From positions 1,570,735-1,634,734 of the forward strand of contig CP053449.1 of assembly GCA_013285465.1 (NCBI GenBank): a stretch of 64,000 nucleotides of DNA. The letters are read 5' to 3'. The notes beneath the pieces are model-generated. The model was not told where the DNA came from, did not search any database, and saw only the letters and a program-made list of their open reading frames with translations. Numbering within the stretch: the stretch's first letter is position 1; each line of letters starts with the position of its first letter. Source of the DNA: Pseudomonadota bacterium. GTDB taxonomy: Bacteria > Pseudomonadota > Alphaproteobacteria > Micavibrionales > CSBR16-224. A program made the position numbers and the translations under genes. This document shows, piece by piece, positions 32,735-52,634 of this stretch.

Positions 32735-32810
32735 GTCCCCTTCGTCTAGAGGCCTAGGACACCGCCCTTTCACGGCGGCAACACGGGTTCGAATCCCGTA
32801 GGGGACGCCA
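32735..32810 (+). tRNA. tRNA-Glu (UUC), intact, with encoded CCA
   Basis: The acceptor stem GTCCCCT/AGGGGAC is complete, the anticodon loop is CTTTCAC with anticodon TTC, the T-arm contains GGTTCGAAT and the 3' end is GCCA. It is the insertion target of the downstream element, whose integration restores the 3' half exactly. Confidence 0.97.
32765..32810. other. attL: 46-bp repeat at the tRNA-Glu 3' end
   Basis: The sequence runs from CCCTTTCACGG in the anticodon loop to the CCA end and is identical to 52589-52634. The crossover therefore lies within the 3' half of the tRNA. Confidence 0.93.
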
Positions 32811-32870: not shown

Positions 32871-32991
32871 GCGCTGAAATGGGCATGAATTGCCTTAGAC
32901 AATCATGAACATATGCTGCTTGTTATTTATGCAATCGGAGAGACAAAACTTTTCAGGGGCCTTTTTGGGGGCCTTTTCAAACAAAAAATGC

Positions 32992-33011
32992 AACACGGGT
33001 TCGAATCCCAC
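32992..33011 (+). other. third, partial tRNA-like att remnant
   Basis: Twenty bases (GCAACACGGGTTCGAATCCC) match the T-arm region of tRNA-Glu exactly, followed by a diverged CCCCTAGGGGGCACACCA. It looks like a decayed tRNA 3' end or an old attachment site. It cannot fold as a tRNA. Confidence 0.55.
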
Positions 33012-37688: not shown

Positions 37689-38227
37689 TATTCTTCTAAG
37701 GGTACGCGAAACTCATGGTTTCTTGTAGTGTATCGGGCCTTTTGGTCCATAAAAGAGCGATAATCAACTACCAACTCATACTCCGAACTTAAAAAATGCT
37801 GTATCTCTTCAACTGAAAGTCCTTCATTATGAACCTTGATGTTAAGTAACAAATGCTTCTCTCCTGCAGCAATCGCGCCATTAGGCGTTAAAACTGTTAT
37901 GCTACAGTCTTCTATAATATCAGTGATTAGGTTTAGGGCTGCGTTCCCTCGGTAAGTTCTACCAGCGCTAATAATTGCAAAATCATCGATGATAGCTGGC
38001 CCTAAACCCACGTTACTAATCCACAACTGAACAAAATCATGACCATCAACCGATGCAAGCTCGAATACGGTATTCAGATAGGGCCTGACAGATTGTTTGT
38101 TTTGCACGCGCGCTGCATGAGCTTGGAATATAGTGGCAGCAAGAGCTACAATACTAATAAATATCCCTGTTGCCGCAGCGGGATTACTGACTGCCCACGA
38201 ATAAAACAACGTCCAATGCTCAGTCAT
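37688..38227 (-). CDS. single-pass membrane protein coupled to the helicase-nuclease
   Basis: The product is 179 residues. A short N-terminus (MTEHWTLFYSWAV) precedes one hydrophobic helix at about 20-36 (GIFISIVALAATIFQAH) and a soluble domain of about 140 residues without recognised motifs. ATG 38227 overlaps the helicase stop (ATGA, 38224-38227), a sign of translational coupling; an ATG at 38242 is also in frame. Similar small TM proteins accompany many defence genes as membrane effectors or anchors, but function here is unknown. Confidence 0.7.
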   Translation of the reverse strand: MTEHWTLFYSWAVSNPAAATGIFISIVALAATIFQAHAARVQNKQSVRPYLNTVFELASVDGHDFVQLWISNVGLGPAIIDDFAIISAGRTYRGNAALNLITDIIEDCSITVLTPNGAIAAGEKHLLLNIKVHNEGLSVEEIQHFLSSEYELVVDYRSFMDQKARYTTRNHEFRVPLEE

Positions 38228-41200
38228 TTTTGCTCTTGCCACTCTCGCACTTTAGCAATGCAATTATCTAAGTCATCACGGATCTCGTATACCCAAAAGC
38301 GCATAACATCCCAACCTAGCTCATACATACGCTGGTTACGGAGTTGATCTCGTCTGCATAACTCCCCCGTCCAATTCCGGTGATATTTTTCCCCATCCAC
38401 CTCAATATCCAGCATTCTATCGCCATCTACAATCGCCAGATCCAGCGTAAATTTTTCGACCTGATACTGGGGCAAGGTTTTGATACCAGCTTCGTATAGT
38501 GCCGAATAAAAGATCTTCTCCCAATCAGACACTTGCTCCGGGTTGCTAACCGCTGGGTAGGCAGAGCCTAAATCTTTTTGCGCTTTCTTCCTATTGCTAG
38601 CTTTACTTCTCTTCTCCAGGCCTTGGGTGTATTTTGCGAAATTAGACAGATAATCAACATCGCATTTGCCACAAGCAGCAAGGTCGCCAACGACAATTAA
38701 CTGAGCCCGCGCTCTTGTAATGGCGACATTAAACAAGTTCCCGTTATTCATGAGGAAGACAAGGCCACCCCCCGGCATATTCTTTGATAGAACAGGCGAG
38801 AAAATCATGATATCCCGCTCATCCCCTTGAAACTTGTGTACGGTATCAACAAGAAAATCACATTTCTGAAGTGCCTTGGCCAGCGAATCATCCTTATCGA
38901 CTGCATTCCGTATGGCATTGGCCTGCGCACGGAATGGGCTGACTACACCGATGCTGCCTTGATATTTTTTCTTTAAGACCAAATCACTGAGCACATCGAC
39001 AATAGCTTGAACTTCCTGCTTATTTTCGGCACCTCCATTATTAGGGCGCTGGACATTACCTTTCACATCCACCCATCTAACGCCGGGCTCCTTTTGTGAC
39101 AACCGGCGGAGATTATCATAGCGCGTCGCAACACGCAGGCGCCCTTCATAAAATTGACTGTTTGAAAATTCGATAACATCCGCATGGGAGCGATGGTGAT
39201 CTAGAAGACTTACAACGTTATCGTATGAAACCATACCAGCGGCCAGATCAAACAAAGAATTATAAGAATATGCCCAATGCGGGTAATCATCAACTAGACC
39301 GTATTTCTCAAGCAATTGTTGGTCCTGCCCACGCTGCAGACTACTGATATGTGACAACTGCTTTGGATCACCGATAATGACTGCGGCTTTCGCTCGATAC
39401 AAAAGAGGTAATGCAGAAGCTATGTCGCATTGGCTGGCCTCATCAAAGATGACTAAATCGAAGAACCCAGGCTCAAAAGGTAGCTTCCCTTTGGCAGAAA
39501 GTGATGTCACTGCCCAACAAGGTAGTAGATGCGATGCCTGAGGAAAAAGTGAATAATACTTACCATAGACGGCTTTTGACAAGTTGCCTTCCGGTCCAGC
39601 CTCAATCACCATTTTAAGAACAGAGTTATATTTGTTCAGCATAGATCGGTCACTGGCACTCAATTTCTTTGGCTGAAGCCTCAACCAGCACTTCCACAAA
39701 GCATCAGAATTACTTGCAATTTTTTGAACTATTCCCAACCTATCAGCAGAGATTTCTTCGAGACTTCTGCACTTTTGTAGTTTTTGCAGCGCTTGGAAAT
39801 AATCGTCAACAGCACGAATAAGGCTAAGCCTTTTATCAATTGCCTTTAGAAATTCAGCCCAATGCGGCAAGTTAATTTCATCTACAAAGCTATCAGGAGC
39901 TTTCAATTCAATTTCTTCAGCTGCTGAGGAAAGCCCGGACACACGCATATTCACAGCCTCAAACCGCGATTTTTTGATTAGTGGCCAGGTTATATTTGAA
40001 ATAAGACCTTGCTGAGACCGATCCGCCGCGGATAAGGCTGTTTTAAATCCTTCAATCTTATATTCCATATCCGTCAGATCAAGTTCACGTATTGAAGAGA
40101 AAAGATCATCGGAAAGCTCAGATCGCAATTCTTCTACGTGGCGCTCAAGAGCATCAGTTTCATTTCGCGCTGCAATGAGCTTATCGACCTGAGCATCGAG
40201 TTCTGCCGACTTTTGTAGCAAGTCGCTATGAATCTCATGCGCTTCTTCGTAATGGAGCTCGTCATCTTGTGAAGCTGTAGCAGAAAGCAGTCCAATCAAA
40301 TATTCCGCCAGGCGCGTTTGGTAAGCGCTGGAACCCACGCGAAGCAATATGGGGCGCGGTCCCAGATTATTGATACGTGTTTCAACAACATCAACCGCTT
40401 TATTATTCTTACTCGCAAAAAGCACGCGCTTTCCCTGCCAGGCAGCATTGACAAGCAGGTTGGTAACGACTTGGGACTTTCCTGTGCCCGGCGGGCCGGT
40501 TATGATCGTTAACGGCTGTGTTAGGGCAGATTTAACTGCCTCCCTTTGCTCCAAATTCATTGGCAATACTTCCAATAGTGGAACATGCTCCTTATCAGGG
40601 GAGGACGAACCAGCGTCCTTAGCCTTAGGCGGCTCGCCCGTAAGCCATTGACCCAATGCTGTGTCGCTGAATTGTCTTTGCTGTTTTTGCGCTAATCCTC
40701 GCAGTTCAGCTTCAAGCCCCTGCGTGAAGGGAGACTTATCAGCCAGAATAAGGACCGCGCGATTAAAAATACCCTCTTTCTTGACTTTAGAGAGTGGCGG
40801 GTTTGCATCAATCAACTTATCCGGATTTATTTTTTCTTCCCACGGCCATTCAGAACGAACTGATTGCAGTCGCATGACCAGTTCATCAATCTCGATTGTG
40901 CCGCCCTCTGAGCCTATCCCCAATTCCTCTTCAAGCTGCACAAGCTCGTCCAACAAGGCGTCTCGTTCCGTATTGGAGTAAGCTTGGAGGGGTTTTAAGT
41001 TTATGATTGGATAGCTGGTGTCCAGCTGCGGCTTATTACTGCCAACCTCAATTTCAATCGGGAACAGGATGACAGGCTCAACCATGTAACCTTCCCAGCT
41101 TGATTTTTTCGATTTCACAAGCTTTAGGCTGGTCGGATAGCCGAGATACATTGATTGTCTGGAGCGATCTTTGCGTATTTTGCCAAGAAGTGTTTGAAAC

Positions 41201-41586
41201 CCCTCTGTGCCAAACAAATCCCTACCGTTTTTCGGCAAGGCTGCGAGTTCGCAATAATCAGGCGTAAACTTGCTTTCAGCAAAAGTTGAGACGCCAGTTG
41301 CATCTTGCCCCATACAGGACAGATAATACCGACAGAGTTGTGCGAGATCGGTATTCGCGAAAACCTCAGGCTCAAAACCCTCATCATCATTTTCAGCATT
41401 TGTAGCGCCGCCGGTGATATACCAGCGGTAGCTCTTATCTTGTCGCACTTTTGAACGTAGGCGACCATAAAGAAGGCTGTTAACATCCTTCTTATCCACG
41501 CCGAACTTGTCCGCCATGGCACGCGCCTGTTGCCCAGGTGCTGCGGTTAAGGCATCAAGGATTTGCTTTTCTAGTTTTTTGCTCAT
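38224..41586 (-). CDS. COG1112-like SF1 helicase with C-terminal Vsr/DUF559-type nuclease domain
   Basis: The product is 1120 residues. Residues 1-60 look like a winged helix (ILDALTAAPGQQARAMADKF). Walker A is GPPGTGKS (364-371), Walker B is VIFDEASQCD, and later SF1B motifs are GDPKQLSHI, DTVHKFQGDERD and NVAITRARAQLIVVGD. A long insert between the motifs (about 440-650) is coiled-coil-like. The last 80 residues (from 1041) have DLAIVDGDRMLDIEVDGEKYH with Asp1049 and Glu1062, as in DUF559/Vsr nucleases. The start lies 32 bp inside the end of the ISP gene. Mokosh-type helicases belong to the same superfamily, but with other nuclease domains. Role inferred: nucleic-acid-targeting defence. Confidence 0.85.
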   Translation of the reverse strand: MSKKLEKQILDALTAAPGQQARAMADKFGVDKKDVNSLLYGRLRSKVRQDKSYRWYITGGATNAENDDEGFEPEVFANTDLAQLCRYYLSCMGQDATGVSTFAESKFTPDYCELAALPKNGRDLFGTEGFQTLLGKIRKDRSRQSMYLGYPTSLKLVKSKKSSWEGYMVEPVILFPIEIEVGSNKPQLDTSYPIINLKPLQAYSNTERDALLDELVQLEEELGIGSEGGTIEIDELVMRLQSVRSEWPWEEKINPDKLIDANPPLSKVKKEGIFNRAVLILADKSPFTQGLEAELRGLAQKQQRQFSDTALGQWLTGEPPKAKDAGSSSPDKEHVPLLEVLPMNLEQREAVKSALTQPLTIITGPPGTGKSQVVTNLLVNAAWQGKRVLFASKNNKAVDVVETRINNLGPRPILLRVGSSAYQTRLAEYLIGLLSATASQDDELHYEEAHEIHSDLLQKSAELDAQVDKLIAARNETDALERHVEELRSELSDDLFSSIRELDLTDMEYKIEGFKTALSAADRSQQGLISNITWPLIKKSRFEAVNMRVSGLSSAAEEIELKAPDSFVDEINLPHWAEFLKAIDKRLSLIRAVDDYFQALQKLQKCRSLEEISADRLGIVQKIASNSDALWKCWLRLQPKKLSASDRSMLNKYNSVLKMVIEAGPEGNLSKAVYGKYYSLFPQASHLLPCWAVTSLSAKGKLPFEPGFFDLVIFDEASQCDIASALPLLYRAKAAVIIGDPKQLSHISSLQRGQDQQLLEKYGLVDDYPHWAYSYNSLFDLAAGMVSYDNVVSLLDHHRSHADVIEFSNSQFYEGRLRVATRYDNLRRLSQKEPGVRWVDVKGNVQRPNNGGAENKQEVQAIVDVLSDLVLKKKYQGSIGVVSPFRAQANAIRNAVDKDDSLAKALQKCDFLVDTVHKFQGDERDIMIFSPVLSKNMPGGGLVFLMNNGNLFNVAITRARAQLIVVGDLAACGKCDVDYLSNFAKYTQGLEKRSKASNRKKAQKDLGSAYPAVSNPEQVSDWEKIFYSALYEAGIKTLPQYQVEKFTLDLAIVDGDRMLDIEVDGEKYHRNWTGELCRRDQLRNQRMYELGWDVMRFWVYEIRDDLDNCIAKVREWQEQK

Positions 41587-44500
41587 CTACATTCTCGGCA
41601 GTTGCAATATCCAGCTTTGGCAGGCTGCGGACAATTTTCATGGTTTCTAGGCTGACGGTGATGACGCGCAGGAAGAGTTCCAGCGGGTATTTGGCGTTGC
41701 CCATTGTTTCGGTTGCCCACAGATTTGCGTCATTCACAATGCCGCTGGCTTTGTCGGTTTTGACGCATTGGCGATCCATCACCCATTCAAGGGCGGGTTT
41801 GCCGTTGACGACGTAATCATAAGCCTCCTCCGGTATATCGCTGATGGTGATGCGGGCGTTATAGACCACCTTTGTTTTGTCACCCTTTTTCTTGAATTTC
41901 ATTTTGGTGACGTAATAGTCCTCTGCTTTCAATTCAGACAGCTTTTTACTGCCAGTTTCCAACTTTGCCTCATAGGGTTTGACGCTTTCATAGCCAACAT
42001 GCAACTCTGCCAAATCGCGCCCCGCCTTGCTGAACGTCCAGAAATCCGCCGCTTTCTTGACGCAAGGGATGCGCGGCAGTTGTTTGGACAGGTTATCGGC
42101 ATAGCGGGTACGGTATTCCTCCGAATGGAGCAGCCCGTAAATATAATAGAAAATATCCTCCTTCGTGATGCTCTCGCCGGGATAAGCGGCTTTAAAATGC
42201 GCCAAGCCTTCATCGGTAATGCCGTCCTTGACGCGATAGCCGTCCTCCGCGTCCTGCCCCGCAAACAAGCCAGCATCACATTCATTAGAGCTTTCATATA
42301 TTTTAAGTGGAAAGTTTTGACCGTTGTAGTGAGTTTTATACTCAGGCACAGCATTACACATCAAGGCAGAAAAATTTTGAGTTTCGCCAGTCCCAGTCGT
42401 ACAAATTACTAGATTATCAAAGTCGCCAGACGGAAAAATTTTCCGTAATTGGGCTTGTCGCTCATTTAACGATCTATCAAAGTAAACCCACTGTTTTGAG
42501 AAAGGTCTATACAAGCTAACTCTAATATTATTTGTGTTAAACTCCAGCTTTCTATTTTTCTCTAAATCGCCTTTAAGATTATTACTCCATTTAATCTTTG
42601 CTCCATCCGAGGATACAAAATCGCTAATATTAGCTGTGTTGCGATGAGGATTGGCAATGTAACGATCAAGTTCCGTGTTGTAAAAACTCACCATTTTAAT
42701 AATATTGCGTGTTAATTCTTGAGCCGAATAATTAAAACACCATGCATCCCTTGTAGTCATAAGCCCTAGTGAGTAGTTTTCAAAAATAGCTTTCTCATTC
42801 GATTTGCCTTTATTTCCGGTAACAATGAATAAATCAAAGCTATCATCGCGCTGGTTGATCCAGTCATTGTGGTCATCGGGGACAATTTCCTGCCAAAAAT
42901 TTTGTTCAGCAATACCGCTAACGCTTTTAAAGCCGCGAATAATATCCAGTTTCTGCTGTTGCGTCAGATAGTCGCCGATATCGTGGAAGTAAATTTTCCC
43001 GTGTTCTTTTGCTTTCGGGTTTTTGACAAACAGGGTAATGGCAATCGGAGCGCGACTGCCGGAGCCGAAAATCTTGCCCCCTTCCTTCCGCGATAACTCC
43101 CCTTGTGTGCGCTGGTTTCCACGCAAATGGAACACATAGATGCTGGAATATTCCTCCGCCAAGCATTTGCGCAACCCGTCCATTGCATTGCCGTCTATCC
43201 AGCCCGCGTTGGAGACGTAAGCCATAACACCGCTTTTCCCCAAACGATCCGATCCCCAGCGAATGGCACGGATATAGGAATCATAAAGCGCATTTTTTAG
43301 CTTCGCTGTTGAATTTGCAACATATGTACTGCGTATATCATCATCCAATGATGGATAATCAACATTTGCACTATTATCGTTTTCATTTTTTTGTCCCGCC
43401 GAGTAGGGCGGGTTGCCGATGATGACCCTAATATCCAGCTCCTTTTGCCGCATCCGACGGTCGCTGTTATCTGCCAGATATTTGCTGATCAGATCATCGG
43501 CTTCGTAAAGCTGGAAAGTATCCGTCAGGCAAATACCTTCAAAAGGCTGGTAATCGCCGCCCGCGATGCCGTGATAGGCGGCCTCGATATTGATCGCGGC
43601 GATGTAATAGGCCAGCAGCACGATTTCATTGGCATGGATTTCATGCCTGTATTTATGCGGCAGCTCTTCCGGCTTGATCAGGCCGGATTGCAACAACCGG
43701 GTGATGAAGGTTCCCGTCCCCGTAAAGGGGTCGATAATATGCACGCCCTTGCTGCCCAGCGTTTCACCGAATTCGGATTGCAGCACGTCATTGACGGAAT
43801 GGATAATGAAATCCACCACCTCGACCGGCGTATAGACGATGCCGAGTTTTTCGGTCATTTTCGGGAAGGCGTTGCGGAAAAACTTGTCGTATAGCTCGAC
43901 AATGATTTTCTGTTTACCTGCGGCGCTGTCGATCCCCTCCGCCCGCATCTGGACGCTGTGGTAAAACCGTTCCAGCGTATCGGCCTCCTTATCCAGCCGA
44001 TGTTCCTGCAACACGTCCAGTACGTGCTGCATAGCCTGTGACACGGGGTTGTTGCTGGCAAAGCTGTATTGTTTGAACAGCGCATCGAAAACCGGTTTGG
44101 TAATCAAATGCTGTGCCAGCATTTCGATTACCTCATCATTGGTGATACTGTCATTCAAGTCATCGCGCAATTCATCGGCGAAGTCATTAAAGGCTTTAAT
44201 CTCTTTCACATTCTTGTCATCACCGACAATCGCCCTGATACGGGTGATATGTGTTTGCGCGATTTTGGCGATATCTTTCGCCCAATCCTCCCAGTAAAGG
44301 CGGTTGCCGCATTTTTGCACCAGCTTGGCGTAGAGCGCCTTTTCCAGCGCCCCGACCTCGAACTGGAATTCGTAATTGACGGGTTTTTCAGGTGTTCCCG
44401 CTTCGCCAATGGTAAAGCCGCCTGATGCGGCGTTACGGTCTTTGGATTTGCCGTCGGTTTGACGTTCCGTCTTTTTGTTGATTTTGTCGGTGACGGCAAT

Positions 44501-46477
44501 GACCTCCATTTTGCTGTGATCTTTACCGATCAAGTCCAGCTTGTTGATCATCGCGTCAAAGCGGTCATCATGCGAGCGCAAGGCTTGCAAGACCTTCCAG
44601 ACGACTTCAAAGGTTTTATTATCGTTCAGCGCCTCATGCGGCTCCGTCCCTGCGGGGATCACCACCGGCAAAATCACATAGCCGCGTTTCTTGCCGGGGG
44701 CAATCCGCATGATGCGCCCGACCGACTGCACAACATCGACCTGCGATTTGCGCGGCGATAAAAACAGCACCGCATCCAGCGCGGGAACGTCCACGCCTTC
44801 GGACAGGCAGCGGACATTGCTGAGGATACGACAGGTATCTTCCGGCGGTTCTTCCTTCAGCCATTCCAGTTTGGCTTCCTTTTCCGTCGCGTTCATACTG
44901 CCATCAACATGCGAAGCCTCACAGCGCAGCGGGTTGTCGCCTTCCTCCTGCTCCTGATAGGCTTCGACCACGGCCTGAAACATATTGGCAATATTTTTGG
45001 AACTGACTTTATGCGTTCTCGCCTTGTCCTGCGGCTCGATCACCTGACAAAAGGCAACAGCGCGTTTCATCGGCGTATCGTCATCGGCAAGGCTGCCGTC
45101 CTGCTCCTGCTTTGACAATGCTTTCCAGCAACCGATAATTTTACCGGCATCATCGACCTTGAGCTGGTTATCCTCCCCCGCCAGCAGGCTTTGCAGCCTT
45201 TTACTGACATGCGCCTCGTCAATCGTCAGCACCAGCACCTTGTAATCGACCAGCAGCCCGCGCGTTACCGCTTCGGAGAAGGTCAGTACATACAATTCTT
45301 TGCCGTAAAGGGCTTCATCATCCATCGAACACAGCGCGACATTATCGCGCTCGGCAGTCGCCTGTGCCGTATCGCCGTAAATGCGCGGCGTTGCCGTCAT
45401 ATAAAGGCGCTTTTTGCCTTTCAGGAAGCCATTATCATGGACTTTGACAAAGGCGCTTTCCTCTTCACCGTCAAAGGTCGCGCCGGTGGTGCGGTGCGCC
45501 TCGTCACAGATAATCAGGTCGAATTCGCCAAGATCATGGTTTTTCTGCGCCTTGCTGATCACTTCAATGGAATGATAGGTCGAAAACACGACGCTCATAT
45601 GCGTTGCGTCATGCCGCTTTTGCATCTCATTGGCCAGCGATGCGGCATTGGTTGTGGCGGGATAGCGCAGCTCGTGCATAAAGGTCGTGACGATATCGTC
45701 ATCCTTTTTGCGCTTTTTGCCGACATCGCTATCGGAACAGACGGCAAAGCTGTGCAGCGGTGTTTCGCTTTCCTGTGTCCATTCCGTCAAGGTCTGGGAC
45801 AGCAAAGACAGGCTCGGCACAAGAAACAGCACCCGCTTGCCTTTACCTGCCAACTCTTCGGCAAGCTTCAAAGCGGTGAAGGTCTTGCCCGTACCGCAGG
45901 CCATGATCATTTTGCCGCGATCCGCATCCTTGAAACCTGCCGTCACTTCCTTTAAGGCGCGTTCCTGATGCGGGCGCAGTTTTTTCTGTTCTTTCAGGAC
46001 AGGTTCTTTTTGCGGCTGGAATTTTGCCCAGTCGATCTGGCTGTTTTCAAGATCGTAAAGGTCGATTTTGGTGACAGGCGGCTGCTGACCCATCAGCGCG
46101 TCTTCGGCATTTTCCGTCCAGTTATTCGTGGTTGTCACAATAACGCGGTGCGTAAACGGCTTTTTGCCCGATGCGGTGAAAAAACTGTCGATATCCTTTT
46201 TCTGGACGCGGTAATCCTCCGCATAAAATTTGCATTGAATTGCGTGGAATTCCTCCGTGCCGTGCGTCTGCGCCACCAGATCAATTCCAGTATCGCGCTT
46301 TTCAATCCCTTGTTCTGCTGCCCAACCCGCATATGTCCAGACTTTCTGGTACAGATCGCGGTAAACTGCTTCGTGCCGTAGATAGGTCAGCACCAGCTCT
46401 TCAAAATAGGTGCCTTTCTCGCGCTCGGTTACAGCGGCATCACGATAAGTTTGTAAAAGTTTTTGAAGAGCACTCAT
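41555..46477 (-). CDS. type ISP (single-chain) restriction-modification enzyme
   Basis: The product is 1640 residues. Domains in order: Mrr-like nuclease (about 1-150; Asp66 in DTGIDLVA and Gln81-x-Lys83 in FHAIQCKFY); SF2 translocase (Walker A ACGTGKT 193-199, DEAH 325-328, TATP 361-364, QSVGRIMR 584-591); coupler; N6-adenine methyltransferase (motif I DPFTGTGTF 916-924, motif IV NPPY 1022-1025); and a C-terminal target-recognition region (about 1150-1600). Architecture and length match LlaGI/LlaBIII (about 1570-1580 residues). Such enzymes methylate one strand of an asymmetric site and cut DNA between converging translocating copies. All catalytic motifs look intact. Confidence 0.93.
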   Translation of the reverse strand: MSALQKLLQTYRDAAVTEREKGTYFEELVLTYLRHEAVYRDLYQKVWTYAGWAAEQGIEKRDTGIDLVAQTHGTEEFHAIQCKFYAEDYRVQKKDIDSFFTASGKKPFTHRVIVTTTNNWTENAEDALMGQQPPVTKIDLYDLENSQIDWAKFQPQKEPVLKEQKKLRPHQERALKEVTAGFKDADRGKMIMACGTGKTFTALKLAEELAGKGKRVLFLVPSLSLLSQTLTEWTQESETPLHSFAVCSDSDVGKKRKKDDDIVTTFMHELRYPATTNAASLANEMQKRHDATHMSVVFSTYHSIEVISKAQKNHDLGEFDLIICDEAHRTTGATFDGEEESAFVKVHDNGFLKGKKRLYMTATPRIYGDTAQATAERDNVALCSMDDEALYGKELYVLTFSEAVTRGLLVDYKVLVLTIDEAHVSKRLQSLLAGEDNQLKVDDAGKIIGCWKALSKQEQDGSLADDDTPMKRAVAFCQVIEPQDKARTHKVSSKNIANMFQAVVEAYQEQEEGDNPLRCEASHVDGSMNATEKEAKLEWLKEEPPEDTCRILSNVRCLSEGVDVPALDAVLFLSPRKSQVDVVQSVGRIMRIAPGKKRGYVILPVVIPAGTEPHEALNDNKTFEVVWKVLQALRSHDDRFDAMINKLDLIGKDHSKMEVIAVTDKINKKTERQTDGKSKDRNAASGGFTIGEAGTPEKPVNYEFQFEVGALEKALYAKLVQKCGNRLYWEDWAKDIAKIAQTHITRIRAIVGDDKNVKEIKAFNDFADELRDDLNDSITNDEVIEMLAQHLITKPVFDALFKQYSFASNNPVSQAMQHVLDVLQEHRLDKEADTLERFYHSVQMRAEGIDSAAGKQKIIVELYDKFFRNAFPKMTEKLGIVYTPVEVVDFIIHSVNDVLQSEFGETLGSKGVHIIDPFTGTGTFITRLLQSGLIKPEELPHKYRHEIHANEIVLLAYYIAAINIEAAYHGIAGGDYQPFEGICLTDTFQLYEADDLISKYLADNSDRRMRQKELDIRVIIGNPPYSAGQKNENDNSANVDYPSLDDDIRSTYVANSTAKLKNALYDSYIRAIRWGSDRLGKSGVMAYVSNAGWIDGNAMDGLRKCLAEEYSSIYVFHLRGNQRTQGELSRKEGGKIFGSGSRAPIAITLFVKNPKAKEHGKIYFHDIGDYLTQQQKLDIIRGFKSVSGIAEQNFWQEIVPDDHNDWINQRDDSFDLFIVTGNKGKSNEKAIFENYSLGLMTTRDAWCFNYSAQELTRNIIKMVSFYNTELDRYIANPHRNTANISDFVSSDGAKIKWSNNLKGDLEKNRKLEFNTNNIRVSLYRPFSKQWVYFDRSLNERQAQLRKIFPSGDFDNLVICTTGTGETQNFSALMCNAVPEYKTHYNGQNFPLKIYESSNECDAGLFAGQDAEDGYRVKDGITDEGLAHFKAAYPGESITKEDIFYYIYGLLHSEEYRTRYADNLSKQLPRIPCVKKAADFWTFSKAGRDLAELHVGYESVKPYEAKLETGSKKLSELKAEDYYVTKMKFKKKGDKTKVVYNARITISDIPEEAYDYVVNGKPALEWVMDRQCVKTDKASGIVNDANLWATETMGNAKYPLELFLRVITVSLETMKIVRSLPKLDIATAENVDEQKTRKANP

Positions 46478-46792
46478 TCAATATCTTTCCAATTTAAAAT
46501 TGTGAACGTGGGTATGTTAAAATCATAGTAGTGAAAGGTCGTGACAAAATAAAGCCAAGAAAATGGCCTATATATTGGACCATTCAATTCATCTTTTGCC
46601 GTGACGGAAACGAAACCTTGCAAAACAAATACCTGCTTAAATTTTTCTAGGCTTTAACATCACAGTTACACCCGCATCTATCAGTTGAACCAGCCACCAG
46701 ACTTGCTTTTACCCCCAATAAATAAGCTTAGTAACCTTGTAGAAACGAAGGTCTTATTCTGTTCAGAGCTCACAAATGCGTATTTTTAAGCA

Positions 46793-46826
46793 AACAACGC
46801 CTTGTTTGAAGCAAGGTTGGGTTGTT
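46793..46826. other. hairpin upstream of the structured RNA
   Basis: AACAAC (46793-46798) and CCTTG (46800-46804) can pair with CAAGG (46812-46816) and GTTGTT (46821-46826), an 11-bp stem with small bulges. It lies just before the -35 element of the RNA promoter. It may be a regulator site or a weak terminator. The rest of 46478-46830 contains no gene that I can support; it should hold the minus-strand promoter of the ISP operon. Confidence 0.4.
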
Positions 46827-46831
46827 TTAGG

Positions 46832-46858
46832 TTGAGAGATCAAAGGTATTTGTATAAT
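46832..46858 (+). promoter_or_regulatory. promoter of the structured RNA
   Basis: TTGAGA (46832-46837) and a perfect TATAAT (46853-46858) are separated by 15 bp, slightly short of the ideal 17. The start would be near 46865, some 19 nt before the RNA's outer stem. Confidence 0.55.
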
Positions 46859-46864
46859 CTTTCA

Positions 46865-47066
46865 CAAGGAAATTAGTGTATTTCCGGGGCGTAGTAACCC
46901 CTCCTAGACGGCCTTAAGACAGCATCAGGCCGTTATCAATGATGCTGCTTTCTCAACTCTGGTTGGGGAGGCAGCGGAATACAACAGCGCTCAGCGTAAA
47001 TACGCTGCGCCGTTCTAGGACGGTTACTAACTCCCCGGCTGCCAGAGAAATCTGGTGGCCGTTTTT
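46865..47066 (+). ncRNA. large structured RNA with terminator, unknown family
   Basis: The outer stem is built from four consecutive paired blocks. CCGGGG (46884-46889) pairs with CCCCGG (47033-47038), TAGTAACC (46892-46899) with GGTTACTA (47022-47029), TCCTAGA (46902-46908) with TCTAGGA (47014-47020), and CGG (46909-46911) with CCG (47010-47012). Inside are at least two hairpins: CAGCATC/GATGCTG (46920-46926, 46941-46947) and CAGCGT/ACGCTG (46992-46997, 47002-47007). An intrinsic terminator ends it. The antisense strand lacks a T-run, so plus is the likely strand. No known family was recognised from reading. Confidence 0.7.
47036..47066 (+). terminator. intrinsic terminator competing with the outer stem
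   Basis: CGGCTGCCAGA (47036-47046), the loop GAAA and TCTGGTGGCCG (47051-47061) form an 11-bp stem with two wobble pairs, followed by TTTTT. Its first bases are also the 3' end of the outer stem of the structured RNA, so the two folds partly exclude each other, as in attenuators. Confidence 0.75.
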
Positions 47067-47086
47067 ATGATACAGGGGAGAAGAGC

Positions 47087-47431
47087 ATGATGGCGTTTCT
47101 ATTTCAGAGTTCAGGTTTGTTTCTGCTTATGTTAGCAGGACACATTGAATACAAAACAAGAGGGAAGCTAAACCTTCGCGCCAAATCATCCGAAAAAAAG
47201 CTCCGCGCAATCGCAAATATTTCGCTCCTCCTATGGCTTGCTTTTGGTTTTTCGTCTGCTTATTGGATGCCATGGTATCTCGCTTTGCTTGCCTTAACCT
47301 TATCAGTCATTTTGCCAGGAAATTTTACAAAGCAGATTATCGCAAGAGACATGGTAAACAAGTCAACATATTACGGATTCGGGGTCGGACTATTTTTCTG
47401 CACCGCAGCTTTTTTGCTAGGGACATCATGA
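47087..47431 (+). CDS. small multi-pass membrane protein downstream of the structured RNA
   Basis: The product is 114 residues with four hydrophobic segments (about 3-18, 44-60, 63-79, 92-111) and a basic loop around 24-42 (KTRGKLNLRAKSSEKKLR). No family is recognised. ATG 47087 has GGGGAGAAG just upstream; ATG 47090 is in frame. It starts 20 bp after the terminator, so expression may depend on read-through. The stop overlaps the next ATG (ATGA 47428-47431). Confidence 0.6.
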   Translation: MMAFLFQSSGLFLLMLAGHIEYKTRGKLNLRAKSSEKKLRAIANISLLLWLAFGFSSAYWMPWYLALLALTLSVILPGNFTKQIIARDMVNKSTYYGFGVGLFFCTAAFLLGTS

Positions 47432-47691
47432 TCCAGTTAGAACTGCCATTACGAGCTAATAATTCTTTGCCTTGCTCTTTCGATCAGATCGCATACGAAG
47501 AGGCTGACAGAATCTTTCAATTGCATCCATATGCGGCTTTGCAATATATATCAGATCAACTAGGCAGCTCCCCTGCAGATGCACCTCAGCTTCTATACTG
47601 GATTCAGGTGCGGCGTGCTTGTAAATTCATTATCGCTTGGCATGACTACTGGTTTAAAGGATATCATTGGCGATTACCTGTATTTGATTAG
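47428..47691 (+). CDS. 87-residue protein coupled to the membrane protein
   Basis: The product is 87 residues: MIQLELPLRANNSLPCSFDQ, then a helical, aromatic-rich C-terminal half (QLLYWIQVRRACKFIIAWHDYWFKGYHW). It is soluble or peripherally membrane-bound. No family is recognised. Its ATG overlaps the previous stop by one base pair step, so the two are a translationally coupled pair. It is one of only two plus-strand genes in the element and ends 52 bp from the primase stop (convergent). Confidence 0.55.
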   Translation: MIQLELPLRANNSLPCSFDQIAYEEADRIFQLHPYAALQYISDQLGSSPADAPQLLYWIQVRRACKFIIAWHDYWFKGYHWRLPVFD

Positions 47692-47743: not shown

Positions 47744-50263
47744 TTATATTTGCTCTAACCTCCAATCCTTCGCATTTTTATTGGAGAGCCCAAGTACAAT
47801 CCTTCGGCCATTTACAATCCGTCCGGCATTCCGCTTCAGCCACCATCCGAGCTTCTTCTTGTTTATGCCAGCCTTGTTATCAGGCGCGATATCTTCCAAT
47901 ATGTCTCTCAACTCTGGATTTGATGTATCAATCAGCTGTCGAACCATCACTGGCTTTGAACAATAAATTTTCCACCATAGATCCATCAATATTCGAATAT
48001 TTTCCCTGTCGGGATCAGCGCCAATAGTTTCAAATGCAGAAGTCATAGGATTTTCATATCCTAGCCACATCAACGGTTGGCAGCACCAGTCTGCCCATTC
48101 ATTATAACTAACCAACGTTCTCTCTGTCAGTCTGGGTTTCCCTGCACACTCCCAAGCGCGAATAATCGTCAATGCAGCAGAGATATATCTGCCTCTTTCC
48201 GACTTTACTTGATCAAGCAAGTTCGGGTTCTTGTATGTTTTAGATGCCGGTGTTTCGCACTCTGCGTCTAGGTTAATTGTAATTGTACGACGCCCCATAT
48301 CTTGAACCGGTCCCACATTATTACCACTCGATAGAAATAGAGTTGCAGTACTGACACTAGCATTTTTTGAAACACCAAGAATTCGTGATGAGAATGTTTC
48401 CTCGGTCAGCACAGTGCAAAGCGATGGATGAGGCAACAAATCGGTTGTAAGGTTATCAAAGTTTACTGCTGCAGGAGCCTCCATCAAAGCAGCCAAAAGA
48501 ACTTTTTTACACTCTTCTTCTGTATCCGGGAATGTATGAGGTGCCACGGAATGGGGAGTTGCAAACAGACAAATTAGCTGATTTAGATATGATTTACCCG
48601 AACCAATTTGCGGAGCACGCGTGTGAAACATTGGCGCTTTTGGCAAGCTAGCACGAATAACAGCCGTTAAAATTGCTGCCAGTGCTGCAGATTGGTCATG
48701 ATTAGCCTTAAAATCAAATTCATTCAATAAACTAGCAAGCAATTCACTCGCTTCAAGCGCCATCACTTTCGATGGTTGGGCAAGGACGTTAAATGCATCT
48801 GCCTCAAATGCACCAAACATATGTGTTTCCACATCATAACCGGGCTCCGACATTAGAGAACCATCTGACCTAAGATATGGCTGGCACGCTATCCCCCTGA
48901 GGACTGGCAAATGCTCATACCGCGGAGCATCAAATAATGCTTGAGCGTATGTGGTCGGCGGGTCGATTTCAACGTACTCCTCCTTAAAAGCATTATATTT
49001 TTGCCATTTAGCAACCTTCGCTAACGCCACCCTGATGGTTGGAGTTCTAATCACTGCAACCTCCAACTTATCACTTTCTGGGTTTCGTCCTAGAGAAACA
49101 ATTGTTCCCCCACGCTGAAAATGTTGCCCTGAACTTGCCAGTGCCTGCTCTGCCTCATCAACAACTTCTTTTAATCTTCCCGGATCAGCATATATAGTAA
49201 CCTTCCCTTTAATGCGCGGTTCGGAAACTCCAAGAGCGCGTCGCAAATGAGACAGGTTTCGATTATTGCAGTGCCCGTGATGACATTTAAATCCTCCGCC
49301 TGGGTAATTCTTACTAGGTTCAAAATAAGCCGTTCCATTATCTTCTGCATTTGTATGCTCTTTCACCCAAGGACAGGTAATATCATGCTTACCATCACCT
49401 AGCGTAGCTTTGTATAAACCCTTATCCTTTAGTGCCGAAACAATGGCTTCGCCCCCGCTACCTGATAGAGAAATTTCAGCATCACTTTTAGCTTCAACTC
49501 GCTTAGAAGACGATCTATGTTGACCCAAACCAAAGGCGAGCGACATTTCTTCTAGGCTATATTGGTTCTGGGGATTCCAATCTGTCAAACGACACTCAAA
49601 ATATGGTACATGCTTGCCATTACACCCGAAGGGTAATCTTGCTAAACGGGCAGTTGGGCCGCCAGCGCCAGCATCGCATAATCCAGCGCTGATCACCGCT
49701 TTCATAAAGCTATCAATTTTTTTGATATCAGATTCAGGAGCCTTCAGAAAGTATAGGGCTTGAAAATTTCCTGCAGAGGTTTCTATTAACGCCGATGGCT
49801 CTACTCTAAGCCTCTCCCTAGGCACTTTGGTTCCTACATCATCCAGCATTATGCAATGTAACGACTTAAAGCTTTTCTTCCTGCGGCGATAGTACCCATC
49901 CCCATCCGGAACAAAGGTCGCAATGCTAAAATATGTATTTGATGTTTGAGCATTTGCCGACAAGATATACGCACGCTTTCTTTCTGTCCCCTTCCAAACA
50001 CGCTTATCCTTCTTTGCAGGATTGCCAACAAAATCAACAATGATTGGCTGTTCTGTTTGCTCGCGGGATCCAAAGACCACCTCCAAAAACTCTTCGTTTG
50101 AAGTCGGAAAGACGGGTGTGTGCGACACCGTTTGAACCTCCCCTGCGTTTTTATCGGTTTTATCGGTTTTATCGGTTTTATTGGTTTTGGTCGCGCCATT
50201 TTTAGATTGTTGATTGGGTCCTGATTTCATATCAAGATGCATCCCCTGGCTTAAATCAGACAT
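47744..50263 (-). CDS. primase-helicase of the integrative element
   Basis: The product is 839 residues. A low-complexity N-terminus (KTNKTDKTDKTDK) precedes a RepB/archaeo-eukaryotic-primase-like region (HCIMLDDVG with Asp141-Asp142; an arginine/histidine-rich segment at 205-220). A CHC2-like zinc site follows (Cys297, Cys327, His331/Cys332 in CPWVKEH...FKCHHGHC). The C-terminal SF3/AAA-type ATPase has Walker A PQIGSGKS (552-559). Similar proteins replicate P4-like and other satellite elements from an adjacent origin. ATG 50263 has AGGAGG about 7 nt upstream and overlaps the alpA end by 8 bp. Confidence 0.8.
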   Translation of the reverse strand: MSDLSQGMHLDMKSGPNQQSKNGATKTNKTDKTDKTDKNAGEVQTVSHTPVFPTSNEEFLEVVFGSREQTEQPIIVDFVGNPAKKDKRVWKGTERKRAYILSANAQTSNTYFSIATFVPDGDGYYRRRKKSFKSLHCIMLDDVGTKVPRERLRVEPSALIETSAGNFQALYFLKAPESDIKKIDSFMKAVISAGLCDAGAGGPTARLARLPFGCNGKHVPYFECRLTDWNPQNQYSLEEMSLAFGLGQHRSSSKRVEAKSDAEISLSGSGGEAIVSALKDKGLYKATLGDGKHDITCPWVKEHTNAEDNGTAYFEPSKNYPGGGFKCHHGHCNNRNLSHLRRALGVSEPRIKGKVTIYADPGRLKEVVDEAEQALASSGQHFQRGGTIVSLGRNPESDKLEVAVIRTPTIRVALAKVAKWQKYNAFKEEYVEIDPPTTYAQALFDAPRYEHLPVLRGIACQPYLRSDGSLMSEPGYDVETHMFGAFEADAFNVLAQPSKVMALEASELLASLLNEFDFKANHDQSAALAAILTAVIRASLPKAPMFHTRAPQIGSGKSYLNQLICLFATPHSVAPHTFPDTEEECKKVLLAALMEAPAAVNFDNLTTDLLPHPSLCTVLTEETFSSRILGVSKNASVSTATLFLSSGNNVGPVQDMGRRTITINLDAECETPASKTYKNPNLLDQVKSERGRYISAALTIIRAWECAGKPRLTERTLVSYNEWADWCCQPLMWLGYENPMTSAFETIGADPDRENIRILMDLWWKIYCSKPVMVRQLIDTSNPELRDILEDIAPDNKAGINKKKLGWWLKRNAGRIVNGRRIVLGLSNKNAKDWRLEQI
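50153..50188 (-). repeat. four 9-bp iteron-like repeats inside the primase start
   Basis: On the minus strand four units follow each other: one AAAACCAAT and three AAAACCGAT (50153-50161, 50162-50170, 50171-50179, 50180-50188 on the plus strand). They encode the TDK/TNK repeats of the primase N-terminus. Unit and length match the 47713-47739 set, in inverted orientation. Confidence 0.7.
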
Positions 50264-50471
50264 TTTTCCCCTCCTCATTACGCATCGGATAACTGTCTAA
50301 AGTTGACAGCCATTCTTCGATAGCCTCTCTAGTTATAAGGGTGCGCTTACCTAATTTAATGGCACGCAATCTACCACTGTTTAATTCGCGGTAAATCACA
50401 GTACGGCACAAGCCAACCATTTGGGTTACTTCAGGTATTGAGTAGCTAAGTTTATCTTGCTGGATGTCCAT
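50256..50471 (-). CDS. AlpA-like HTH regulator/excisionase
   Basis: The product is 71 residues with a MerR-like winged-helix signature (SIPEVTQMVGLCRTVIYRELNSGRLRAIKLGKRTLITREAIEEWL). AlpA proteins of satellites and islands control integrase expression or act as excisionases. ATG 50471 follows AGGAGG closely. The longer frame to 50528 lacks support. It lies between the 186-residue gene and the primase. Confidence 0.85.
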   Translation of the reverse strand: MDIQQDKLSYSIPEVTQMVGLCRTVIYRELNSGRLRAIKLGKRTLITREAIEEWLSTLDSYPMRNEEGKNV

Positions 50472-51150: not shown

Positions 51151-52440
51151 TTACCTCTTTTTTACATTCACAATTGAAACAATGTTCTCATCCTCTAACA
51201 CTCCCATTACAGGGAAGTTAGCCCTGATGGTATCCGCAACATAGTTAGGTGTTAAGTGCGCATAATGCTTCTCACAAATACGAGTATCAGCATGCCCTAG
51301 CTGATGGGCAATTACAGGCAACGGGGTTCCATTCTGCGCCAATAGACTTGCATGCGTATGACGCAAAATATGAAAACTGATCGCAGGAGAAATTCTGGCG
51401 CGCTCACAAGCTTCTTTTAAGCGGCGAGTTTGATGCGATCTTCCCCACTGCTCACCATCCTCACGAGTGAAGATAAGCTCTCCACCACATTTACCAACAA
51501 CAGCTTTTTCAAAGAAACGACGCCCCTCATCGGTTAAAGTCACATGACGTGGTTTGCCGTTTTTGCTATCAGCAATAAAGAGTGTTCCGTTTTCCGGGTT
51601 AAAGTCACTTACATGAAGCTTAGTCAACTCGCCATATCTACAGGCGGTAAAATATCCAGCCAACACCATTTTTCTAAAGTCTGGATCACATGCATTCACG
51701 AGGCGCTGGACTTCATTAGGCATTAAAAACCTTATCTTCGCGTTTTCTACATTTCGGAAAGGTTTAACGCGTCGCCACGCATCGTCACTTGCGACCTTGC
51801 CTTCTTGGTACGCCCTGTTCAATGCCGCTTTCAGTATCGTCAAAATACGGTTTGCAGAGCTTTTCCTCTTGCGCGCATAATCTGACTGTTTTTTTGCGTC
51901 TTCATTGTTGGATATTTCACCATGCTTTGACCGTTGTCTCGGCTTCTCTTGAGCAAGCCCCCTATGCCAATCTGAAATTTTCTTAGAGGTCAGCTTGGTA
52001 ACAAGCAAATGACCAAACTCAGGACGCAGATAAGCTTCAATACTATATTTTGCACGCTCTGCTGATTTACCATGCATACGCAAGTATTCCAAATAATCAT
52101 CCAAAATATCGTTTACGGTAAGCTTAGCATTCCCAATCCCCAGCTCGCTTTTTTTGCTTTCCTCAAACCATTGGCGACCTTTTGCTTGAGCTTGCGAGAA
52201 ATCCAAGACAGCCATACCGTCTGCATCCTGAATGTCATCCGCCTTGCCCAATTGACAAAATTGATATTTGCCTTCCTCAGAGCGCACACGTGCAATCCAA
52301 GAGCCTCCACCATCTTTGTGCTTTCTATATCCAATGTGGAAACCCCTATCAATGTTCTTCCAATGGGGTTCACGCTGAGCTTTTAATGACTGGCGTGCAG
52401 TCCGTGTATCCAGCCTTTTATCCTTAACAGTCCTTGCCAT
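51151..52440 (-). CDS. int: tyrosine recombinase (site-specific integrase)
   Basis: The product is 429 residues. The catalytic set is complete: Arg268 in FTACRYGELT, Lys293, His357 and Arg360 in HILRHTHAS, His383 in QLGHADTR and Tyr393 in KHYAHL. The N-terminal 100 residues form an arm-binding-like domain; residues 105-205 the core-binding domain. It lies 149 bp from attR and is transcribed into the element. It is expected to recombine attP with the tRNA-Glu 3' end. Confidence 0.96.
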   Translation of the reverse strand: MARTVKDKRLDTRTARQSLKAQREPHWKNIDRGFHIGYRKHKDGGGSWIARVRSEEGKYQFCQLGKADDIQDADGMAVLDFSQAQAKGRQWFEESKKSELGIGNAKLTVNDILDDYLEYLRMHGKSAERAKYSIEAYLRPEFGHLLVTKLTSKKISDWHRGLAQEKPRQRSKHGEISNNEDAKKQSDYARKRKSSANRILTILKAALNRAYQEGKVASDDAWRRVKPFRNVENAKIRFLMPNEVQRLVNACDPDFRKMVLAGYFTACRYGELTKLHVSDFNPENGTLFIADSKNGKPRHVTLTDEGRRFFEKAVVGKCGGELIFTREDGEQWGRSHQTRRLKEACERARISPAISFHILRHTHASLLAQNGTPLPVIAHQLGHADTRICEKHYAHLTPNYVADTIRANFPVMGVLEDENIVSIVNVKKR

Positions 52441-52588: not shown

Positions 52589-52634
52589 CCCTTTCACGGC
52601 GGCAACACGGGTTCGAATCCCGTAGGGGACGCCA
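52589..52634. other. attR: 46-bp copy of the tRNA-Glu 3' end
   Basis: It is identical to 32765-32810 and not preceded by a D-arm or 5' acceptor stem, so it is not a second tRNA. The 103-bp spacer between the arm repeat and attR holds no gene. Confidence 0.95.

Follow-up and report, generated by a model that had tools for sequence, protein, structure and literature searches.

An RNA encoded in the 64,000-nucleotide stretch of DNA analyzed here (the window, part of a single-contig genome of 2.67 Mb) is likely a pseudoknotted leader carried on an integrative element, and it likely regulates translation of the adjacent cargo through a strand of its own that is complementary to the Shine-Dalgarno (SD) sequence; we put the probability of this reading at roughly 0.6. 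Judged from sequence, the RNA is best read as a self-contained anti-SD riboregulator of mobile elements that would work like the c4 RNA of P1/P7. The features concerned are collected in Table 1.

Table 1. The leader RNA, the genes behind it and the surrounding element (positions in the window).
Feature	Position	Strand	Evidence or remark
attL (3' part of tRNA-Glu)	32765–32810	+	46-bp direct repeat with 52589–52634
Type IIG restriction enzyme-methyltransferase	41555–46477	−	PADLOC PDLC03597, 2475 bits
Predicted promoter	46832–46858	+	TTGAGA 46832–46837, TATAAT 46853–46858, spacer 15 nt
Structured leader RNA (predicted transcript to terminator)	46862–47066	+	z −7.94; 44/94 genomes; 33/41 pairs with two-sided changes
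5' hairpin	46868–46885	+	MFE; sequence highly variable among loci (alignment, by eye)
GGGG strand	46886–46889	+	Pairs with CCCC 47033–47036 in MFE; would compete with M for M'
Helix A, 5' strand	46892–46898	+	Pairs with 47023–47029; 95.6% of cells paired; two-sided changes in 5/7 pairs
Strand B	46903–46907	+	Pairs with hairpin F loop 47015–47019; 5/5 pairs two-sided; 79.2% of cells paired
Hairpin C	46909–46932	+	46909–46913 with 46928–46932; 98.6% paired
Pseudoknot D (supported by covariation)	46920–46947	+	C loop 46920–46926 with 46941–46947; 5/7 pairs two-sided; 87.5% paired
Alternative hairpin H (MFE)	46945–46974	+	5' arm complementary to M
Strand M with extension (GGUUGGGGAG)	46961–46970	+	Core 46964–46970 pairs with 47031–47037; 6/7 pairs two-sided
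Stretch matching RF02221 (sRNA-Xcc1), model positions 1–87	46962–47047	+	44.7 bits, E 4.5e-7, cut-off 53
Hairpin E with conserved internal loop	46972–47007	+	99.3 and 100% paired
Hairpin F	47011–47022	+	94.4% paired; loop 47015–47019 (B') pairs with strand B
Strand A'	47023–47029	+	Pairs with helix A 5' strand
Strand M' (anti-SD)	47031–47040	+	Pairs with M; complementary to SD of the gene behind
Predicted intrinsic terminator	47036–47066	+	Stem 47036–47061 and T5 47062–47066; 5' arm overlaps extended M'
SD GGGGAG of P1, copy of M	47075–47080	+	Sequence
P1, 114 aa, likely membrane protein, orphan cargo	47087–47431	+	No Pfam match, no homologue
P2, 87 aa, orphan cargo	47428–47691	+	No Pfam match, no homologue
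Primase-like protein	47744–50278	−	phrog_4861, phrog_19930
Tyrosine integrase	51151–52440	−	PF00589, 4.7e-27
attR of the ~19.9-kb element	52589–52634	+	46-bp direct repeat with 32765–32810

The segment 46862–47068 has a minimum free energy (MFE) of −96.8 kcal/mol versus a shuffled mean of −61.6 (sd 4.4), and none of 200 shuffles was as low (z = −7.94). A stable fold beyond chance had been named beforehand as a check on the original prediction, which described a structured RNA with its own promoter and terminator followed by two small genes. The TATAAT box of that description is present, as part of a promoter that is predicted only; the promoter scan does not list the site, because its spacer is 15 nt and the scan asks for 16–18 nt. 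Among homologues, a TANNNT −10-like motif lies 18–50 nt upstream of 46886 in 48 of 59 (32.9 expected by shuffling). A terminator-like site was likewise detected where an intrinsic terminator had been placed, and the ATG of P1 follows 20 nt past the T run, P1 and P2 overlapping by ATGA as described. For this RNA, no Rfam family reached its own cut-off.

The RNA is located inside an element of ~19.9 kb whose ends are marked by a 46-bp direct repeat, the 3' part of tRNA-Glu. In addition to the proteins in Table 1, the element encodes an HTH excisionase-like protein. The description of this element as defence-rich is borne out by the type IIG restriction enzyme-methyltransferase that adjoins the RNA between the tRNA-Glu repeats. 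The restriction gene adjoins in turn a reading frame (38224–41586, minus strand) for a helicase-like protein of 1120 aa, similar to MkoC/MkoA according to PADLOC, and the two are possibly a defence pair. A 20-bp partial att copy at 32990–33009 is perhaps the trace of another integration.

A nucleotide search located the RNA at 71 places in 44 of 94 genomes, counting its own; 17 genomes have several copies, and none has more than four. Of the 70 other places, 60 were taken as loci of 3.8–10.4 kb. ORFs of the window integrase's cluster lie within about 5 kb of the RNA at 31 of the 60 loci, so that a mobile setting is documented for about half of them and presumed for the rest. A covariance model built from 59 of the RNAs and including the 5' domain (R1) matched 26 of 38 genomes, at up to 9 places in one (weak matches and the own genome included), and, across the class, 26 of 289 genomes (own genome counted). 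With strict filters, R1 matched 11 of 299 genomes of the phylum, mostly weakly, and weak matches may be spurious, as the own genome gives a reverse-strand match at 2.5e-4. A pattern scan returned 40 named loci (10 Micavibrio sp., most others Alphaproteobacteria or Proteobacteria, and four loci from other groups) and 2 viral contigs; blastn of the window RNA against plasmid and phage collections gave no match. Carriers of the window-type RNA probably belong to the order of Micavibrio.

P1 and P2 are not a conserved partner of the RNA, which stands before different genes. In a search of 5.8 billion proteins each matched only itself, neither matched Pfam (E up to 1) or PADLOC, and P1 was not found in viral contigs. 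When companions were sought in the loci and the protein database, the sole weak relative, of P1 (29% identity), turned up in L050, where it is the second gene behind the RNA. The suggestions of a stable RNA with companion proteins, an RNA-guided system or a toxin-antitoxin module therefore find no support for these two orphans. The marks of a type III toxin-antitoxin system were also missing: P1 and P2 could be assigned to no family of Pfam or PADLOC, the genes that follow the RNA are unrelated, and repeats were judged by eye. Pfam analysis of 55 of 58 downstream proteins of the window's branch (very short ORFs left out) gave 17 families (E no higher than 0.01), of which DUF2846 was the most frequent with 4 proteins; since these families have no common function, no input signal is suggested. 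The position of the gene is conserved. Of the 59 loci (out of 61) with enough sequence, 49 have a start with an RBS that opens an ORF of 60 aa or more 5–45 nt past the RNA; such a start follows 666 of 11,800 random places (5.6%) and lies on the divergent side of the RNA in 3 of 59 loci. The nearest gene upstream is on the strand of the RNA in 32 loci and on the other strand in 25. A lipoprotein-like family recurs behind the RNA in L046, L051, L066, and L067 (second behind the RNA in L067), and by eye lipoprotein-like signal sequences look frequent among the cargo.

The original prediction had looked to homologous elements for covariation, and it is found there. In an alignment of 59 of 61 RNAs, from which L041 and L064 were excluded because they could not be aligned in their 5' halves, two-sided changes occur at 33 of 41 named pairs. 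Paired cells amount to 92.7% versus 79.8% in shuffled alignments, two-sided cells to 304 versus 77 (sd 10), and none of 500 shuffles reached any of five covariation measures. Sliding the partner strands by 1–3 columns brought pairing down to 30–44%, although this control is biased towards the structure because it was derived from the same sequences. The predicted outer stem in four blocks stands as a drawing of the MFE fold; covariation confirms two of the blocks, A and B, with B pairing into the loop of another hairpin (F) and the 47031–47037 strand pairing with M. The fifth pair of B is poorly kept (unpaired in 40 sequences). Complementarity of the M' strand to the 5' GGGG is also kept, and 46887–47035 can form a standard pair in 97% of the homologues. 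The alternative hairpin H was rejected as the true structure: it is paired in 90.2% of cells versus 89.3% in shuffles and shows little covariation.

Three crossings, B with the F loop, the C loop with 46941–46947, and helix M with helix A, are supported by the aligned sequences and absent from single-sequence folding, so the RNA is likely pseudoknotted. The crossing helices may form simultaneously or as alternatives, and the counts fit either. Pairing extends beyond the M core: between 46961–46964 and 47037–47040, at least 3 of the 4 possible pairs form in 55 of 59 homologues; when own and other loci are compared, 3 of 10,000 permutations match this extension. The extended helix reaches the 5' arm of the terminator, and extended M and the terminator base therefore exclude each other.

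In the window, the hexamer GGGGAG occurs both in M (46965–46970) and in the SD of P1, and CUCCCC of M' (47031–47036) complements both. Across 54 of 59 loci, M' is complementary to its own SD over 4.67 nt and to the SDs of other loci over 4.32 nt, a difference reached in none of 10,000 permutations, which treat related loci as independent. A replicate with 24 of 28 further loci (one duplicate and three without a start dropped; some of the 24 near relatives of each other) gave 4.88 versus 4.49 nt (26 of 10,000 permutations). On average the gain is below one nucleotide, a small effect, and any ordinary SD is complementary to CUCC. Matching cases include L061, L054, L043, L114, L071, and L095. When segments of the RNA were scanned against their own start region, ~47021–47040 alone rose above z 3 (up to 5.5; next 2.5), and wider stretches up- and downstream reached at most z 3.0. 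The F..A' strand and the F loop, tried as anti-SD elements in the window's branch, were rejected for want of an own-locus excess (1965 and 9610 of 10,000).

The SD sequences themselves differ somewhat from those of other ORFs. Where GGAG is present, it is extended to GGGAG in 15 of 37 RNA-linked genes versus 12 of 69 other ORFs; full GGGGAG is rare in both sets (1 of 50 and 2 of 209). GGAG is commoner in the RNA-linked set (37/50 versus 69/209), and part of the contrast is therefore due to badly placed starts of the other ORFs. With M and the SD as alternative partners of M', the sequence has the makings of an SD/anti-SD platform. The form of a riboregulator or attenuator, as predicted, thus agrees with the covarying structure, the terminator-like hairpin, the gene start 20 nt on, and the SD complementarity.

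Neither the RNA nor the proteins had been recognized initially. P1 and P2 remain orphans; the RNA is a diverged relative of sRNA-Xcc1 (RF02221), and a relative rather than a member, since its score stays below the gathering score of 53. Common to both is a core made of the M/M' stem, hairpin E (with an AAUACAA...AAUA internal loop), and hairpin F, which aligns over the whole RF02221 model, and reciprocal R1 matches occur in RF02221 sources. In contrast to the window RNA, which is longer, sRNA-Xcc1 as known from Rfam and RACE is an 87–88-nt 3' part only. The window's branch also differs in having a 3' terminator hairpin and the C/D pseudoknot, and in that M' rather than the F loop faces the SD. 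RF02221 was found in 58 of 398 genomes of the phylum (39 over cut-off), at up to 9 places in one, and in none of 14 controls. Of 34 RF02221 loci and phages, 28 gave a full-length R1 match at E up to 1, and in 22 of these E was no higher than 0.01; the matches mostly began 75–115 nt upstream of the RF02221 stretch. Because R1 includes the 5' domain and matches full length, sRNA-Xcc1 seems to represent the 3' portion of a longer RNA like that of the window.

By RACE, sRNA-Xcc1 was described as a separate RNA of 88 nt (PMC2996969). This length probably fits the 87-nt Rfam model, which starts at the M stem, and the 88-nt species may be a processed product. An RNase P-like NCC follows the M' stem in only 28 of 70 members of the sRNA-Xcc1 set and is therefore not used as proof of RNase P processing. 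In other papers, sRNA-Xcc1 lies upstream of symE in a Xanthomonas integron cassette, where a regulatory mechanism unlike that of symR was suggested (PMC12444791), and in tandem in a Xylella island (PMC12189769). It is abundant in EHEC EDL933, with 40,293 reads, an RPKM of 25,609, and a ribosome coverage of 0.02 (PMC5331693). Our search of EDL933 gave an 89-nt match with ant beginning 40 nt downstream; from length and strand, this is presumably the copy in the published table, which refers to another assembly. The symE remark apart, the passages of openly accessible sRNA-Xcc1 papers covered here do not name the start region of the adjacent gene as a target.

A loop complementary to the RBS behind it, as in c4 RNA, is seen in part of the prophage/sRNA-Xcc1 loci (the F loop with A'); in the window's branch only strand M' shows such complementarity. 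Of 70 loci, 46 have a start with an RBS within 60 nt, and 14 have none within 130 nt. Perfect matches of at least 7 nt between F..A' and the own start region occur in 24 of the 46, versus 6.2% of pairings with other genomes (0 of 10,000 permutations); the remaining 22 have no 7-nt match. F..A' is also complementary to upstream strands of its own RNA, over at least 8 perfect nt in 45 of 69 loci versus 9.2% of other-genome pairings (0 of 10,000).

As far as sequence can speak to it, pairing with the start region is best supported by concerted allele changes in E. coli. Twelve E. coli and coliphage sequences (ten chosen at different identity levels, not at random, together with EDL933 and phi296) carry four address alleles in otherwise similar leaders, each allele being concordant across upstream strand, F loop, and SD region. 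Among 5426 complete E. coli genomes the leader matched 374; the match covered 80% or more of the query in 341, and ant is annotated behind it in all 20 matches listed of the 374. Among phages, the RNA precedes an antirepressor gene in Aaphi23, phi296, and VHML; the gene behind it encodes a KilA-N protein in Acinetobacter phage 4316 and, in Moraxella phage Mcat15, a hypothetical protein. Pfam analysis of 53 of 56 downstream proteins of the sRNA-Xcc1 set (very short ORFs left out) gave SymE (5), Bro-N (5), Rha (3), P22_AR_N (1), and KilA-N (1), most proteins having none of these. The antirepressor leaders L216, L173, L228, and L232 represent the four address alleles, a possible typing system for prophage cross-regulation.

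In the regulation we propose, transcription from the TATAAT promoter would mostly stop at the terminator. M' (or the F loop) would cover the SD and repress translation, either in read-through mRNA or in trans as part of the short RNA; capture of the anti-SD strand by M (or strands A/B) would leave the SD free for translation. The 5' half would then be a target mimic, or decoy, competing for the anti-SD strand, and the prophage branch would follow the same logic with the F loop as its anti-SD strand. Processing where the M stem begins, at the mapped 5' end of sRNA-Xcc1, would release an active antisense strand. We infer the direction of control, its action in cis or in trans, and the processing.

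This proposed logic is that of the c4 RNA of P1/P7 (PMC5320573, PMC12197685). The c4 RNA regulates an antirepressor, its loop b' occluding the RBS and a' giving specificity, and it arises by cleavage of a longer transcript, at the 5' end of a stem that begins with GG (PMC5320573). The E. coli and Aaphi23 relatives of the window RNA also stand before ant genes, but the family has another fold, with crossing helices, and cargo far beyond antirepressors. Rfam c4 models did not match 46700–47200 at E up to 10, nor the RNA's place in 12 relatives, the one weak c4-2 match lying elsewhere in L150. The sar RNA of P22 is encoded antisense to its target, whereas the window-type RNA lies upstream of its gene in the same orientation. 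Both sar, which blocks ant translation as an antisense RNA (PMC12197685), and 24B_1 of phage Phi24B, a small phage RNA proposed to act on ant (PMC4426718), have targets of the kind found behind the prophage leaders. However, 24B_1 lies between lom and vb_24B_43, comprises 20 nt from an 80-nt transcript, and has its site inside the ant gene (PMC4426718).

The crossing helices and the very conserved internal loop of hairpin E could also be an aptamer. The RNA would then be a ligand- or protein-sensing riboswitch, in which internal loop and pseudoknots decide between terminator or SD occlusion and expression, with the anti-SD strand as a platform. The overlap of the terminator with the extended M helix would suit such a switch, as would the diverse cargo, which is a property of some signal riboswitches. 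We consider this rather unlikely, given that the genes behind the RNA share no pathway and that the E. coli addresses change allele by allele, which a ligand switch would not need. The address alleles recall lock-and-key immunity, and together with the predicted own promoter and terminator they lend themselves to a c4- or antitoxin-like sRNA acting in trans on incoming related elements, with only incidental control of the adjacent gene; sRNA-Xcc1 is indeed a separate 88-nt RNA by RACE (PMC2996969) and abundant in EDL933 (PMC5331693). Such a role is improbable as the main one, since the complementarity is to the adjacent gene of the own locus, and co-orientation and close spacing are kept.

Expression of the RNA would be irrelevant if the locus were a folded recombination or insertion site that collects cassettes, like integron attC. 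The variable gene on one side, the nearby integrase-cluster ORFs at 31 of 60 loci, and the integron setting of sRNA-Xcc1 (PMC12444791) would agree with this. SD complementarity and concerted changes point instead to pairing with an mRNA start, and a terminator-like hairpin and a TANNNT motif also speak against such a site, which we regard as very improbable.

Returning to a leader that acts on the SD, we tentatively propose, at somewhat less than even odds, a broader form of this reading: a portable, self-addressed module of Proteobacteria phages, integrons, and islands, whose addresses evolve as lock, key, and decoy and of which sRNA-Xcc1 would be a processed product. Such a module could tame any cargo, because its 5' half copies the ribosome-binding region of the cargo and its 3' half is the matching anti-strand; with three address copies evolving as lock, key, and decoy, each element would therefore have its own immunity type. 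If this is true, sRNA-Xcc1, for which many targets have been predicted, gains a concrete target in the adjoining gene. Antisense control of the c4 kind would then be no peculiarity of P1 and instead a widespread means for mobile elements to silence their cargo, and address alleles would predict which prophages can regulate each other.

By eye, many prophage-type leaders (L171–L174, L142–L170) have a terminator-like hairpin followed by a U run (CCGCACCCG..GCGGUUUUUU) between B and the M stem. This internal hairpin is absent from the window's branch and could yield a short 5' decoy RNA.
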